64,000 nucleotides of DNA, taken from NCBI GenBank assembly GCA_003001975.1, contig PVUG01000014.1, forward strand, positions 1-64,000, read 5' to 3'. The stretch is from Martelella mediterranea (GTDB lineage Bacteria; Pseudomonadota; Alphaproteobacteria; Rhizobiales; Rhizobiaceae). Position numbers and translations under genes: made by a program. A model generated the notes under the pieces. It had not been told where the DNA came from and did no database searches. It saw only the letters and a program-made list of their open reading frames with translations. Below are positions 59,707 through 64,000 of the stretch, in pieces; position 1 is the stretch's first letter, and every line of letters begins with the position of its first letter.

Positions 59707-61398
59707 TCAGGCACCGTCACCGGCAAACCGGAAGACCTCATAAAGCCAGTCGCTCATGATCCTGAGCTTGTCTTCGGCAAGCGGGCAGTGGCTCAGGGTT
59801 CGCAGATAATCGTGGGCGAGGCCCTCGCCCTCGTCGATGCTCACCGCAACGCCAGCCTTTTTCAGGGCATCCGCATAGGCCGCGCCGCTGTCGTGCATCG
59901 GGTCGTTAGCGGCAAGCGCGATGAAGGCGGGCGGCAGGTCCGCATGCGTCGGCGCCGAGAGCGGCGTGATCATCGGGTCGGACATCAACCGTTTTTTGTC
60001 CGGACAGTAGCGGGCGCCCATGTCGGCCACGTCATCCGGGCGCAGCAAGGGGCCTTCGGCATTCTGCCTGCAGGACGTTCGGGTCAGGTCGAAATCGCAG
60101 ATCGGATAGATCAGCAGCTGGGCGCAAAGCGGCATTTTCCTGTCCCGGCAGGTCATCGCCGTGACGGCGGCGAGATTGCCGCCCGCGCCGTCGCCGCCGA
60201 TAGCGATTCGCTCCGCGTCGATACCGAGCGTCTCCGCCTGATCGCGCGCCCAGGCAATGACCGAAAGCGTCTGTTCCAGCGCCGTCGGACAGGGATGCTC
60301 GGGCGCCAGCGCATAATCCACGGAAATCACCGTCTGCCGTGTCCACGAGGCAAGGCGGGCCGTTGTGTCCCAGTGCGATTCGGGGCTGCCGCGCCAGAAA
60401 CCGCCGCCGTGCAGATAGATCAGGGCCGGTTGCGGGCCGCTGCTCATGTGCCGGAAGATGCGCACGCGCACGGGCCCGCCGTCACTGTCGATCCAGTGTT
60501 CGGTATCGGTCTCGATATTGGGCGGCGTGGGCAGTCGCAGGTTTCGGGCAATCGAATTGTAGAGCACGCGCCGCGCCTCGAGCGTCGTGCCGGCGGGAAG
60601 GCTGGCCTGTTGTGCTTCCAGAACCTCGATAAAGCGGTAGATTCCGGGATCGATCTTGCGCGGTTTCGTCTGCGGGCGCTGCTCGACATCCTCGGGCGAA
60701 AGCCCCGGTTTCATCACGAAGCGCAGCACCATGTCGCCGGTGTGCCGGCGCAGCATGTCCTGCCCCTTGGGTTCGAACAGCTCTGTGCCGAAAATGTTCG
60801 AGAAGGTGGCGCGGTTGGAAACGTTGAAGATGGCAAGCGCGGAGATGTGCCAGTGCAGCTCAAGCGCCGTCAGGCCGGAACGGAACAGGCCCTCGTCGCA
60901 GCCGCGCCTGTAGATCTCCTCCAGCAGCCGGATGGCCGAACTGTTCTGTCCCGCAATCATCTCGGATTTCGACATGTGACGGCCCTGGTGGATGTTCTCG
61001 ACCATCACCAGCCGCACGAAATCGCGCTCCCGGCTGTGGTGGTCGAATGTGAACTCCGTCAGCTGCCGCAAGGCCTCCACCGGATGAAGGCTTTCAAGTT
61101 CGAGATCGTCTTCCGCGCGGCGCATGCGGGCATAGGCATCTTCCAGAACGGCGCGGTAAAGGCCTTCCTTGTCGCCGAAATAATAATAGATCATGCGCTT
61201 CGAGGTGCGGGTGCGCGCCGCGATTTCGTCCATCTTGGCGCCGGAAAGCCCGTGGGCGACAAACACGGCGCGGGCCGTCTGCAGGATATTTTCGCGTACG
61301 GCCTCCGGATCCTGCTTCCAGCTTCGCCGCGCGGTCACATCCGCCTCGTCCCTGATTTCGCCCTTCGCCAAGTTCTCTCCTCCCGAACGTGTCCCCAT
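59707..61398 (-). CDS. TetR-type regulator fused to an HSL-family alpha/beta hydrolase domain lacking the nucleophile Ser
   Basis: 563 residues in one uninterrupted frame. Residues about 25-235 are a TetR regulator: ENILQTARAVFVAHGLSGAKMDEIAARTRTSKRMIYYYFGDKEGLYRAV and a helical core ending RRHTGDMVLRFVMKPG. Residues about 250-563 are an HSL-type hydrolase: oxyanion HGGGFWRG (330-337), Asp499 in AANDPMHD and His529 in GLAHDYL. The nucleophile elbow, normally G-D-S-A-G-G, reads GDGAGGN, so Ser404 is Gly and hydrolysis by the usual mechanism is not expected. The domain may serve as a ligand sensor. The gene is divergent from quinate/shikimate dehydrogenase and convergent with pcaB. The start is uncertain: a GTG at 61338 is also possible. 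Confidence 0.9.
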   Translation of the reverse strand: MGTRSGGENLAKGEIRDEADVTARRSWKQDPEAVRENILQTARAVFVAHGLSGAKMDEIAARTRTSKRMIYYYFGDKEGLYRAVLEDAYARMRRAEDDLELESLHPVEALRQLTEFTFDHHSRERDFVRLVMVENIHQGRHMSKSEMIAGQNSSAIRLLEEIYRRGCDEGLFRSGLTALELHWHISALAIFNVSNRATFSNIFGTELFEPKGQDMLRRHTGDMVLRFVMKPGLSPEDVEQRPQTKPRKIDPGIYRFIEVLEAQQASLPAGTTLEARRVLYNSIARNLRLPTPPNIETDTEHWIDSDGGPVRVRIFRHMSSGPQPALIYLHGGGFWRGSPESHWDTTARLASWTRQTVISVDYALAPEHPCPTALEQTLSVIAWARDQAETLGIDAERIAIGGDGAGGNLAAVTAMTCRDRKMPLCAQLLIYPICDFDLTRTSCRQNAEGPLLRPDDVADMGARYCPDKKRLMSDPMITPLSAPTHADLPPAFIALAANDPMHDSGAAYADALKKAGVAVSIDEGEGLAHDYLRTLSHCPLAEDKLRIMSDWLYEVFRFAGDGA

Positions 61399-61445
61399 GC
61401 GCGTCTACTACATAATAAACAGCAATTTCACGACCCACAAAACAA

Positions 61446-61497
61446 AACTAACCGTGCCGAACATTCCCTTGACATAATTAACCGAATTGAACAAAAT
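61446..61497 (+). promoter_or_regulatory. Promoter with paired 17-bp direct repeats before the quinate/shikimate genes
   Basis: AAYTAACCG-N4-GAAC occurs at 61446-61462 and 61476-61492, exactly 30 bp apart, which is about three helical turns. A perfect -35 TTGACA lies at 61469-61474, and a 17-bp spacer leads to CAAAAT at 61492-61497 as -10. The second repeat fills the spacer, so a bound protein would block or remodel RNA polymerase. The best candidate protein is the divergent TetR-hydrolase. Confidence 0.5.
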
Positions 61498-61532
61498 CAA
61501 GAACAGGAGATTATTTGGGAGGTTGTTTCTGC

Positions 61533-62429
61533 ATGGTCGTCACACAGGCGCGTTCGGCGCGGGCCGGCTCGGGTCAGGTCTTCAAGGCCGGTCTCCTGGG
61601 GCAGGGAATCGGTGGTTCGCGGACGCCGGGCATGCATATGGCCGCCGCGAAGGCGCTGGGCCTCGACTACCAGTACGACTTTATCGACGTGCTGGAACGC
61701 GACCTGCCTTCCGACGTCGGCGCGATCCTCGACCTGCTGCAGGCCGAAGGCTATCGCGGCCTCAACGTGACCTATCCTTTCAAACAGGCGGTGATGCCGC
61801 ATCTCGATGAATTGTCGCAGGACGCGCAAATGGTCGGTGCGGTGAATACGGTCGTTTTCGAGGATGGCCGGCGCATCGGCCACAACACAGATTGCTGGGG
61901 CTTTGCCCAGAGCCTGCGCCGCGGGCTGGCCGAAGACGCCGCGCGCGACCGGGCCTTGCTGCTGGGCGCTGGCGGCGCCGGTGGGGCCGTCGCGCATGCG
62001 CTTCTCGATGAAGGCATTGGCCGGCTGTTCGTTTTCGATCCCGACCGGAAAAAGGCTGACGCGCTGGTCGCGGTTCTTGCGCAGCACTTCAGCGCGGACC
62101 GGGTTCAGGCCGTTGAAAATACGGAGATTGCTGCCGATGTCGACGGCATCGTCAACGCCTCGCCCGTGGGCATGGAAAAGCTGCCGGGCTGTCCGCTTCC
62201 AAAACATCTGATCGCGCCGCGTCACTGGGTGGCCGATATCGTCTATTTCCCGCCGGAGACGGAACTGATCAAGGCTGCCACCGAAAAGGGATGCGCGGTT
62301 TTGCCGGGCACCGGCATGGCGCTCTGGCAGGCTGTGCGCGCCTTTGAACTGTTTACCGGAAAAGAACCCGATATTGCCGAAATGAAGCCGGTTCTGCTTG
62401 CGAAAGCGACACCGGAAAAGGGAGCGTGA
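61533..62429 (+). CDS. Shikimate/quinate dehydrogenase (AroE family, catabolic type)
   Basis: 298 residues. It oxidises shikimate or quinate with an NAD(P) cofactor. The substrate domain has GQGIGGSRTPGMHM in place of the biosynthetic S-R-S-P form, similar to catabolic quinate dehydrogenases. Catalytic Lys and Asp are in LNVTYPFKQ and GHNTDCWGFAQ. The nucleotide loop is LLGAGGAGGAVAHALL. The end GMALWQAVRAFELFTG is typical. The ATG at 61533 has GGGAGG 10 nt upstream; a TTG at 61515 is less likely. The neighbouring dehydroshikimate dehydratase supports a catabolic role. Confidence 0.88.
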   Translation: MVVTQARSARAGSGQVFKAGLLGQGIGGSRTPGMHMAAAKALGLDYQYDFIDVLERDLPSDVGAILDLLQAEGYRGLNVTYPFKQAVMPHLDELSQDAQMVGAVNTVVFEDGRRIGHNTDCWGFAQSLRRGLAEDAARDRALLLGAGGAGGAVAHALLDEGIGRLFVFDPDRKKADALVAVLAQHFSADRVQAVENTEIAADVDGIVNASPVGMEKLPGCPLPKHLIAPRHWVADIVYFPPETELIKAATEKGCAVLPGTGMALWQAVRAFELFTGKEPDIAEMKPVLLAKATPEKGA

Positions 62430-62433
62430 CGGG

Positions 62434-64000
62434 ATGAAGACCTCAATCGCCACCGTTTGCATTGCCGGCGATCTGCCTGAAAAGCTGGCGGCCATTGCAG
62501 CCGCCGGTTTCGATGGCATCGAGATTTTCGAGCAGGATTTCATTGCCTTCGATGCCTCGCCGCGCGAGGTCGGGCGCATGGTGCGCGATCACGGGCTGGA
62601 AATCACGCTGTTCCAGCCGTTCCGCGATTTCGAAGGGCTGCCGGAGCCGCTGCGCGCGCGCGCCTTCGACCGCATGGAGCGCAAGTTCGACCTGATGCAG
62701 GAACTGGGCACCGATCTGGTGCTGGTCTGCTCATCGACCCACCCGGAAGCGCTTGGCGGGATCGACCGCATGGCGAATGATTTCGCCGCGCTCGGTGAAC
62801 GGGCGGCAAAGCGGGGCCTGCGCGTCGGTTTCGAGGCGCTTGCATGGGGCAAGCATGTCTGGGACCATCGCGACGCCTGGGAAGTCGTGCGCCGCGCCGA
62901 TCATCCGAATATCGGGCTCATTCTCGACAGTTTTCACACGCTCGGCCGCGGCATCGATCCCGACACCATCCGCCGCATTCCCGGCGACCGGATTTTCTTT
63001 GTTCAGCTTGCCGATGCGCCGATCATCGAGATGGACCTGCTCTACTGGTCCCGCCACTTCCGCAACATGCCGGGCGAGGGCGATCTCGATGTGGTCTCCT
63101 TCATGCGCGCGGTTGCGGCAACGGGATATGCCGGGCCGCTGAGTCTGGAAGTCTTCAACGACCAGTTCCGTGGCGGCAGTCCCGGTGCGATTGCCCGCGA
63201 CGGACATCGTTCGCTGGTCTACCTCATGGATCAGGTCCGCCGGCAGGAGCCGGACAACGCCTTCAACCTGCCCGACATGCCGCCGCGGATTTCGACGCGC
63301 GGCGTTTCCTTCGTGGAATTTGCCGCCGATGAAACGGAAGCGGCGGAACTGGCCGGCATTCTGTCGGCGCTCGGTTTCCGGCGGGCCGGGCGGCACATCT
63401 CCAAACAGGTGGAACTCTGGCAGCAGGGCGACATCCGCGTGGTCATCAATACCGAACGCGAGGGCTTTGCCCACAGTGCGCATATCGTGCACGGCCTCAA
63501 TATCTGCGATATCGGGCTGCAGGTGGAAAGCGCCGCCGACACCGTTACGCGCGCCGAGGCGCTGGGCATCACGCCGTTCCACCAGCCGGTGGGAACCGGA
63601 GAGCTGGACATTCCGGCGATTCGCGGCGTCGGCGCGGGACTGATGCATTTCATTGATGATACCAGCGGCCTTGCCGGGGTCTGGGACAAGGAATTCCGAC
63701 CGGTCTCCGACGATACGCCGACGCGTGACGCCGGGCTGAAGCGGATCGACCATATTGCCCAGACGATGAATTACGAAGAAATGCTGACATGGTCGCTGTT
63801 CTACCTATCGCTTTTCGAGACCGAGAAAACGCCGACCGTCGATGTCGTCGATCCCGGCGGACTGGTCCGCAGTCAGGCCATTCAGTCGCCCGATGGCGCG
63901 CTGCGCGTGACCCTGAACGGCGCCGAAACCCACAGAACCTTTGCCGGCCGGTTCGTTGCCGACAGTTTCGGCTCGTCGGTGCAGCATGTCGCCTTCGAGA
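62434..64000 (+). CDS. quiC: 3-dehydroshikimate dehydratase, fused type (QuiC), cut by window edge
   Basis: The first 522 residues are present; the 3' end lies outside. Residues about 1-270 are a sugar-isomerase-like TIM barrel. Its metal ligands fall at Glu134 (VGFEALAWG), Asp165 (LILDSFHT), Gln191 (FVQLADAP) and Glu239 (LSLEVFND), the positions I recall for Pseudomonas QuiC1. From about 290 on there is a vicinal-oxygen-chelate domain like 4-hydroxyphenylpyruvate dioxygenase (VSFVEFAADETEAAELAGILSALGFRRAGRH, then LKRIDHIAQTM). It converts 3-dehydroshikimate to protocatechuate, which feeds directly into the adjacent pca genes. It starts 4 bp after the dehydrogenase. Confidence 0.92.
   Translation, partial: MKTSIATVCIAGDLPEKLAAIAAAGFDGIEIFEQDFIAFDASPREVGRMVRDHGLEITLFQPFRDFEGLPEPLRARAFDRMERKFDLMQELGTDLVLVCSSTHPEALGGIDRMANDFAALGERAAKRGLRVGFEALAWGKHVWDHRDAWEVVRRADHPNIGLILDSFHTLGRGIDPDTIRRIPGDRIFFVQLADAPIIEMDLLYWSRHFRNMPGEGDLDVVSFMRAVAATGYAGPLSLEVFNDQFRGGSPGAIARDGHRSLVYLMDQVRRQEPDNAFNLPDMPPRISTRGVSFVEFAADETEAAELAGILSALGFRRAGRHISKQVELWQQGDIRVVINTEREGFAHSAHIVHGLNICDIGLQVESAADTVTRAEALGITPFHQPVGTGELDIPAIRGVGAGLMHFIDDTSGLAGVWDKEFRPVSDDTPTRDAGLKRIDHIAQTMNYEEMLTWSLFYLSLFETEKTPTVDVVDPGGLVRSQAIQSPDGALRVTLNGAETHRTFAGRFVADSFGSSVQHVAFE

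Follow-up and report, generated by a model that had tools for sequence, protein, structure and literature searches.

A TetR-type regulator carrying an esterase-type domain without its nucleophile, beside a probable shikimate/quinate operon of Martelella

Why does a TetR-type regulator carry a complete esterase-type domain whose catalytic serine has been replaced? The question is posed by a gene of Martelella mediterranea in the window, that is, the whole stretch of 64,000 nucleotides that was analysed. A sequence-only reading of this DNA had found a TetR domain and a full HSL-type hydrolase domain in one 563-residue frame, and had proposed that the fusion is a pseudoenzyme sensor, in which the hydrolase domain binds a ligand without cleaving it and signals to the TetR part. 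The two-domain frame was confirmed by Pfam and by structure comparison, and HGGG, Asp499 and His529 were found kept as claimed, together with a Gly codon in a G-D-G-A-G elbow (Table 1). We show here that the fusion is a real, conserved and unusual regulator, and we weigh what its dead domain might do.

Residues are numbered throughout in the open frame 59707-61398 on the minus strand, whose 563 codons begin with ATG at 61398. This frame of the earlier reader is nine codons longer than the version that starts with TTG at 61371. The TTG is the more likely start, since a GGAGG lies a few bases 5' of it in all three Martelella sequences (in the window the TTG is preceded by GGAGGAGAGAAC, with the motif GGAGGAG), and since an in-frame ATG upstream of the TTG occurs in the window frame and in neither of the two other Martelella frames.

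The front part of the protein contains a helix-turn-helix of the TetR family (Pfam TetR_N, 50.7 bits, curated cut-off 24) and an all-helical core (TetR_C_29, 146 bits, cut-off 26.2); helices between residues 106 and 228 of the predicted model agree with a TetR core. The rear part has the HSL family IV fold, with 200.8 bits for Abhydrolase_3 (PF07859) at residues 326-532. An AlphaFold2 model, built from 52 aligned proteins of the window and the loci, consists of two confident domains with a weak joint at 241-245 (mean pLDDT 92, pTM 0.64). In structure searches with this model, residues 245-557 matched Est8 (4ypv; VIA Z 44.6, rmsd 2.1, 308 aligned), and Escherichia coli Aes (4krx) was also a neighbour of the hydrolase domain (Z 40.8, rmsd 2.2, 307 aligned). 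The TetR half had no counterpart among the matches listed, which are occupied by the hydrolase fold, and its identity is therefore taken from Pfam and sequence. Gly404 stands where family IV esterases have the Ser of GDSAG, while the catalytic Asp and His are present as Asp499 and His529 in the window and in two other Martelella proteins. By descent and fold the Martelella domain is a relative of these esterases, and it is not expected to be a competent esterase itself. The genome of the window holds no close second esterase (Abhydrolase_3 has three further matches there, scoring 22 to 49 bits versus 204), and a search bearing on an anti-phage role matched no PADLOC family at 0.001.

Table 1. 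Positions of the fusion gene, its domains and residues, and the divergent operon in the window
Feature	Position	Strand	Remark
TetR-pseudoHSL fusion gene	59707..61371	(-)	likely start TTG at 61371, 554 aa
HSL-type alpha/beta-hydrolase domain, complete, without nucleophile	59743..60654	(-)	residues 249-552
His529 and Asp530	59809..59814	(-)	His529 kept in Martelella, Arg in Alloyangia/Salipiger
Asp499, kept	59902..59904	(-)	catalytic Asp present
Nucleophile elbow G-D-G-A-G	60181..60195	(-)	residues 402-406; Gly404 for Ser at 60187-60189
Oxyanion HGGG, kept	60400..60411	(-)	residues 330-333; family IV motif
Joint between domains	60655..60702	(-)	around residues 233-248; pLDDT <50 at 241-245
TetR_C_29 core domain	60727..61083	(-)	residues 106-224, PF17938; solved relative 3npi
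TetR_N DNA-binding domain	61147..61287	(-)	residues 38-84, PF00440
Operator-like copy 2, TGTTCGGCACGGTTAG	61448..61463	(-)	one mismatch
Promoter-like site TTGACA-17-CAAAAT facing aroE	61469..61497	(+)	sequence pattern
Operator-like copy 1, TGTTCAATTCGGTTAA	61478..61493	(-)	30 bp from copy 2
Shikimate/quinate dehydrogenase (aroE/quiB-like)	61533..62429	(+)	first gene of the divergent operon
QsuB-like 3-dehydroshikimate dehydratase, TIM barrel and HPPD-like domain	62434..64000	(+)	extends past the window; Pfam AP_endonuc_2, Glyoxalase_5

The placing of this regulator at a shikimate/quinate operon was borne out by the genes divergent from it, pca genes lying on its other side. The second gene of the operon we take to be qsuB, and the pca and qsu gene names are likewise our assumption; beyond it follow an SMP-30 lactonase, two DctP, DctQ and DctM (a transporter type called TRAP-A below) and a type II dehydroquinase. 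Gene families of this kind serve shikimate/quinate uptake and conversion towards protocatechuate, and the operon is probably one for uptake and catabolism of shikimate or quinate.

An operator had been suspected at 61446-61492, and it is there that the two operator-like copies of Table 1 came to light. Between tetR and aroE, relatives share a conserved 16-mer, TGWWCNNNNNGGTTAA. Of 99 different TetR upstream regions (126 before identical regions were merged), 90 contain it with at most one mismatch, against 0.5 in shuffles; as the regions are related, this does not amount to 99 independent tests. Two or more copies occurred in 49 of the 99 regions, and 42 of 50 neighbouring spacings were 30 or 31 bp. 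The orientation of the element is fixed (140 forward versus 3 reverse matches, counted with a stricter pattern and two mismatches). The window has two copies, and the shuffled window gives 0.28 matches. Copy 1 spans the spacer and the edge of the second hexamer of the only promoter-like site in 61360-61560, and copy 2 ends five bases before the first hexamer, so that both copies are positioned where a repressor would sit. An exact TGTTCNNNNNGGTTAA was found in the genome of the window only in the tetR-aroE intergenic region, and 29 sites with one mismatch lie elsewhere (versus 15 for a reversed control pattern); the regulator is thus probably local, with further targets possible. From this arrangement, the TetR half is very probably a local repressor of the divergent aroE-qsuB-TRAP operon. 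The same genome encodes a second TetR (G000:C23:7025-7600, locus L084), 36% identical to the TetR half and without a hydrolase match.

Sorted by class, the operator-like site was found with 44/44 TetR proteins without HSL, 22/28 with a separate HSL, 15/16 intact fusions and 8/10 fusions lacking the nucleophile, hereafter pseudo-fusions. These counts bear on the sensor proposal, according to which the TetR half receives a signal from the dead domain once an ester, lactone or acid of the pathway has bound there, so that the protein would have two effector sites. In the tree set, the same operator-like site precedes all 44 TetR orthologues that lack the domain, and nearly all of them stand beside the same kind of operon, which speaks against sensing; because these orthologues share both place and site, we rank a scaffold role of the domain above it.

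To place the loss of the serine among relatives, 80 loci were kept in a contig scan of 333 relatives, and genomes of the genus (13), the family (297), a second family (394), a second genus (20) and the class (385) were searched further; proteins identical in the last 250 residues were merged before counting, which reduced 171 open frames to 134. Sixty different proteins had a related HSL domain, 34 of them separate and 26 fused to TetR (25 assigned by script, and L150, whose fusion appears in the genome search). Ser-Asp-His is intact in 34/34 separate proteins and in 16/26 fusions, and Gly occupies the nucleophile position in 10/26 fusions. Three pseudo-fusions come from Martelella and keep His529 (the window, L085 and L001); the other seven come from Alloyangia/Salipiger (L008, L011, L013, L014, L158, L161 and L163), and in all seven His is replaced by Arg. 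Gly404 is accordingly found in two other genomes of the genus, that of Martelella radicis (L001, which coincides in contig place with G009) and G006.

Ten different fusions with Gly rule out an isolated mutation or a sequencing error at Gly404, and the loss of the nucleophile is real and common to a whole clade. The sequence-only interpretation was borne out in part. It would have been refuted by homologous fusions that carry Ser together with a Gly restricted to this gene; such Ser fusions do exist, but Gly is not confined to the window. Its view of the fusion as in itself a pseudoenzyme sensor has to be given up, as does the generalisation that all TetR-hydrolase fusions are pseudoenzymes, given the 16 that keep the triad. 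The intact-enzyme fusion is commoner in our sample, and the pseudoenzyme state is a derived end-point. Within the 13 Martelella genomes, a pseudo-fusion was present in three, an adjacent tetR and intact HSL in two, and distant relatives only in eight. Fusions are rare, occurring in 2/385 genomes of the class at E 1e-110 and, at E 1e-100, in 6/394 genomes of the family to which an Alloyangia genome belongs.

An enzyme of some other, serine-free chemistry might also result from such changes. Plant carboxylesterase-like cyclases that lost the triad His are described in excerpts of PMC10873640, and the pseudo-fusions keep HGGG and Asp499 and have a new Asp530 adjoining His529, as might suit a chemistry reached after partial loss of the triad. 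However, Arg replaces His529 in 7/10 pseudo-fusions and a His-based chemistry is thus not shared among them, nor was any new gene linked to them in both lineages within the mapped stretches. We regard this explanation as very improbable.

Gene maps, drawn with a simple gene caller and BLAST labels versus the window's genes and with Pfam support for part of the genes, showed that the same tetR next to aroE occurs in four settings: without HSL, with HSL as a gene within the operon (e.g., L042, L047, and L066), with HSL immediately following tetR on its strand (e.g., L015, L019, L022, and L027), and fused. As relatives have HSL adjoining tetR as a separate cistron, the fusion probably arose when neighbouring tetR and HSL cistrons were joined into one frame. 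Genome G532 carries two divergent intact TetR-HSL fusions (L150 and L157) outside the main fusion clade, which are perhaps a second, independent fusion event.

In trees of both domains with the active-site columns removed, the ten Gly fusions form one clade with the intact fusion L004 (support 100/99), and alone they form a clade with support 86/57, or 61/28 when only the HSL half is used. The TetR half alone groups L004 with Alloyangia/Salipiger, and trees with L004 inside the Gly group were not rejected. With such clade support and such trees, the proposal that Ser was lost exactly once was not upheld; Ser may have been lost once or twice. L004, a fusion of Pseudooceanicola sediminis, has an intact triad, a Martelella-type gene order and protein identities of up to 89%, although it belongs to a different family from Martelella, and to a different order; the module has therefore probably moved between lineages. 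The branch of L004 is long in the HSL half (0.67 versus 0.13 for its TetR), and this protein may represent a transitional state, with an intact triad in a relaxed domain.

A clue to what the intact hydrolase acted on came from the transporters. Across 54 loci, two types of DctM could be told apart, TRAP-A and TRAP-B; DctM of 300 residues or fewer (hence L009) or with less than 56% identity to that of the window, and loci from L100 upwards except three of Martelella, were left out. L183 duplicates the DNA of L010 and was left out as well. The 25 TRAP-A loci comprise 22 without HSL in view and the three Martelella pseudo-fusions, with an intact HSL in 0/25, whereas an intact HSL accompanies TRAP-B in 28/29 loci (18 separate, 10 fused), the remaining locus, L064, having no HSL in view. 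The plain table gives a Fisher p of 1.5e-14, which ignores relatedness. A sign test on the TetR tree, which left out loci with no or two TRAP types, had few independent switches to draw on: 4/5 supported pairs pointed in the same direction, none in the opposite one and one showed no difference (p 0.125), and the link with TRAP-B was thus not upheld as statistically independent. Among 18 whole genomes, TRAP-B DctM (73-91% identity) was found in 9/9 with an intact HSL and in 0/9 whose only close HSL is a pseudo-fusion, the best match there being 42-62%. G307 has a pseudo-fusion as well as TRAP-B, and in this genome an intact separate HSL (GDSAG, Asp, His) adjoins TRAP-B. In L004, neither a TRAP-B beside aroE nor a DctM was found in the sequenced stretch examined. 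G305 and G306 also contain a partial DctM match of 42-43% inside a much longer frame.

The coupling of the intact hydrolase to one TRAP type is a new observation. Since intact HSL accompanies TRAP-B and is absent with TRAP-A, the intact hydrolase probably acted on the TRAP-B solute, and catalysis was probably lost with TRAP-B. TRAP-B thus becomes a candidate substrate link for an esterase so far without an assigned role. The absence of this companion of the intact hydrolase from the nine pseudo-fusion-only genomes examined weighs further against a dead domain that senses the pathway.

If catalysis has gone, the domain might simply be useless and decaying, persisting merely until the frame breaks. 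This would agree with the Martelella proteins, in which dN of the HSL half is 4.8-7.4 times that of the TetR half versus 1.1-4.2 in intact fusions. However, the same ratio is just 1.06-2.09 in Alloyangia/Salipiger, and the frame is open across the whole HSL domain in 10/10 pseudo-fusions despite an HSL identity of only about 56% between the two groups. The HSL omega (NG86), computed for three groups, is also well below 1, at 0.16-0.27 in Martelella (3 pairs) and 0.13-0.40 in Alloyangia/Salipiger (21 pairs), compared with 0.06-0.14 in intact fusions (10 pairs). Among 50 intact sequences, 88 columns are conserved to at least 95%; 70 of these show no change in any of the three Martelella proteins, and 66 show none in any of the seven from Alloyangia/Salipiger. 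The pseudo-domains also still vary less where intact relatives are conserved (10-16%) than at variable columns (55-66%). We consider mere decay improbable. The dead domain keeps a fold-level constraint that is weaker than in the enzyme.

Ten positions have a residue that at least nine of the ten pseudo-domains share and that intact domains seldom have. Two changes, Ser404Gly and Gly530Asp, were each found in 10/10 pseudo-fusions and 0/50 intact sequences, across two far-diverged lineages. Together with the full fold, its HGGG and the persisting fold-level constraint, this joint change argues for a sensor, and precedents exist in the same fold family with GID1 (excerpts of PMC3531792) and Aes acting on MalT (excerpts of PMC10427625). 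The constraint is, however, weaker than in intact fusions, and the three Martelella proteins have lost two N-terminal tryptophans of the HSL domain, W260 and W264 (50/50 and 49/50 in intact sequences), which the seven from Alloyangia/Salipiger retain. Adding the HSL-less orthologues and the missing TRAP-B, we judge a pseudoenzyme sensor possible and rather unlikely, yet a rival to be taken seriously. The conservation pattern as such would fit either a catalysis-free scaffold or a remodelled pocket.

The Alloyangia/Salipiger pseudo-fusions stand in another neighbourhood. In 7/7 loci (L008, L011, L013, L014, L158, L161/L167, and L163/L166) a POT-family transporter gene lies upstream on the same strand, its product being 83-100% identical to that of L008, for which there is Pfam support, and no aroE operon was found in the mapped stretches. 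Upstream lies a single diverged operator-like copy, within one mismatch in 5/7 loci and with two mismatches in L013; L161 had no convincing copy upstream. The Alloyangia genome G305 has an ordinary tetR-aroE operon elsewhere (L182), with three operator-like copies. Given the POT gene upstream, the absence of aroE in view and this ordinary operon, the Alloyangia/Salipiger pseudo-fusion has probably changed its target. At L182:10109-10183, near-palindromic sites TGAACC-N4-GGTTAA recur at steps of 29-30 bp, and the TRAP transporter of L182 is unlike TRAP-A and TRAP-B, its DctM being 42% identical to that of the window. It is tempting to speculate that the domesticated esterase has become a second, non-catalytic effector site, whose emptied pocket (Gly404, Asp530) would bind a shikimate/quinate derivative and set repression, and that the same regulator was retargeted beside the POT transporter in Alloyangia/Salipiger; we think this rather unlikely.

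The account that we favour, and hold to be reasonably probable, is a predicted local repressor of the aroE-qsuB-SMP30-TRAP-aroQ operon with a retained, catalytically dead esterase domain. What can be read directly from the sequences is the two-domain frame, intact relatives in three arrangements, the loss of Ser404 in a clade, and fold-like conservation; the steps that follow are predictions. A TetR dimer would occupy the two 16-bp sites at the aroE promoter and block transcription, and a small pathway acid binding to the TetR core would lift repression. The esterase domain would have been gained by the joining of a neighbouring hydrolase cistron, the ancestral hydrolase working on the TRAP-B solute, for which a shikimate or quinate ester or lactone is plausible. 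With TRAP-B gone, catalysis would no longer have been selected and Ser would have been lost. The folded domain would be retained in the regulator, its most likely use being stability or the geometry of the dimer, and its remodelled pocket (Gly404, Asp530) may have residual or new ligand binding. L064, with TRAP-B and without HSL in view, and L004, with an intact triad and without TRAP-B beside aroE, count against this account, and the joint occurrence of Gly404 and Asp530 in 10/10 pseudo-fusions would be unexplained if the domain were a mere passenger.

Living relatives show every step from a separate enzyme through an adjoining cistron and an intact fusion to a dead domain in a regulator, and how a pseudoenzyme domain is born within a regulator can therefore be tested directly. 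They also carry a warning for annotation, because a hydrolase label conceals the regulator: five of six plasmid records covering at least 80% of the protein (H1, H3, H4, H5, and H6) give just "alpha/beta hydrolase fold domain-containing protein", and the features of the remaining record (H2) are carboxylesterase NlhH and a hypothetical protein. With such names, the regulator half is hidden from annotation searches. Listings from literature searches in open-licence PMC showed neither a published TetR-esterase fusion or TetR regulator of quinate/shikimate genes nor a published description of the operator-like 16-mer.

Among known systems, one-component repressors with a TetR_C_29 core (3npi) resemble the fusion in the helix-turn-helix and core, in the divergent gene and in imperfect palindromic 16-bp sites at a promoter-like site; the fusion differs by its extra 300-residue hydrolase domain and by paired sites 30-31 bp apart. 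With the family IV esterases Est8, Est2, and Aes it shares the whole fold, HGGG, Asp and His, but has Gly for the nucleophile Ser and carries the hydrolase behind a DNA-binding regulator. According to excerpts of PMC10427625, the activator MalT is inhibited on direct contact with the acetyl esterase Aes of E. coli. Aes is thus likewise a protein of this fold with a regulatory contact to a transcription factor; it is, however, a separate and active esterase, whereas the domain of the fusion is covalently attached and lacks Ser. The parallel that had been drawn with the plant receptor GID1 is loose. GID1 is a non-catalytic gibberellin receptor of presumed HSL descent (excerpts of PMC3531792), but it lost His and keeps Ser and Asp (excerpts of PMC10873640 and PMC3531792), whereas the fusion lost Ser and, in Martelella, kept His.
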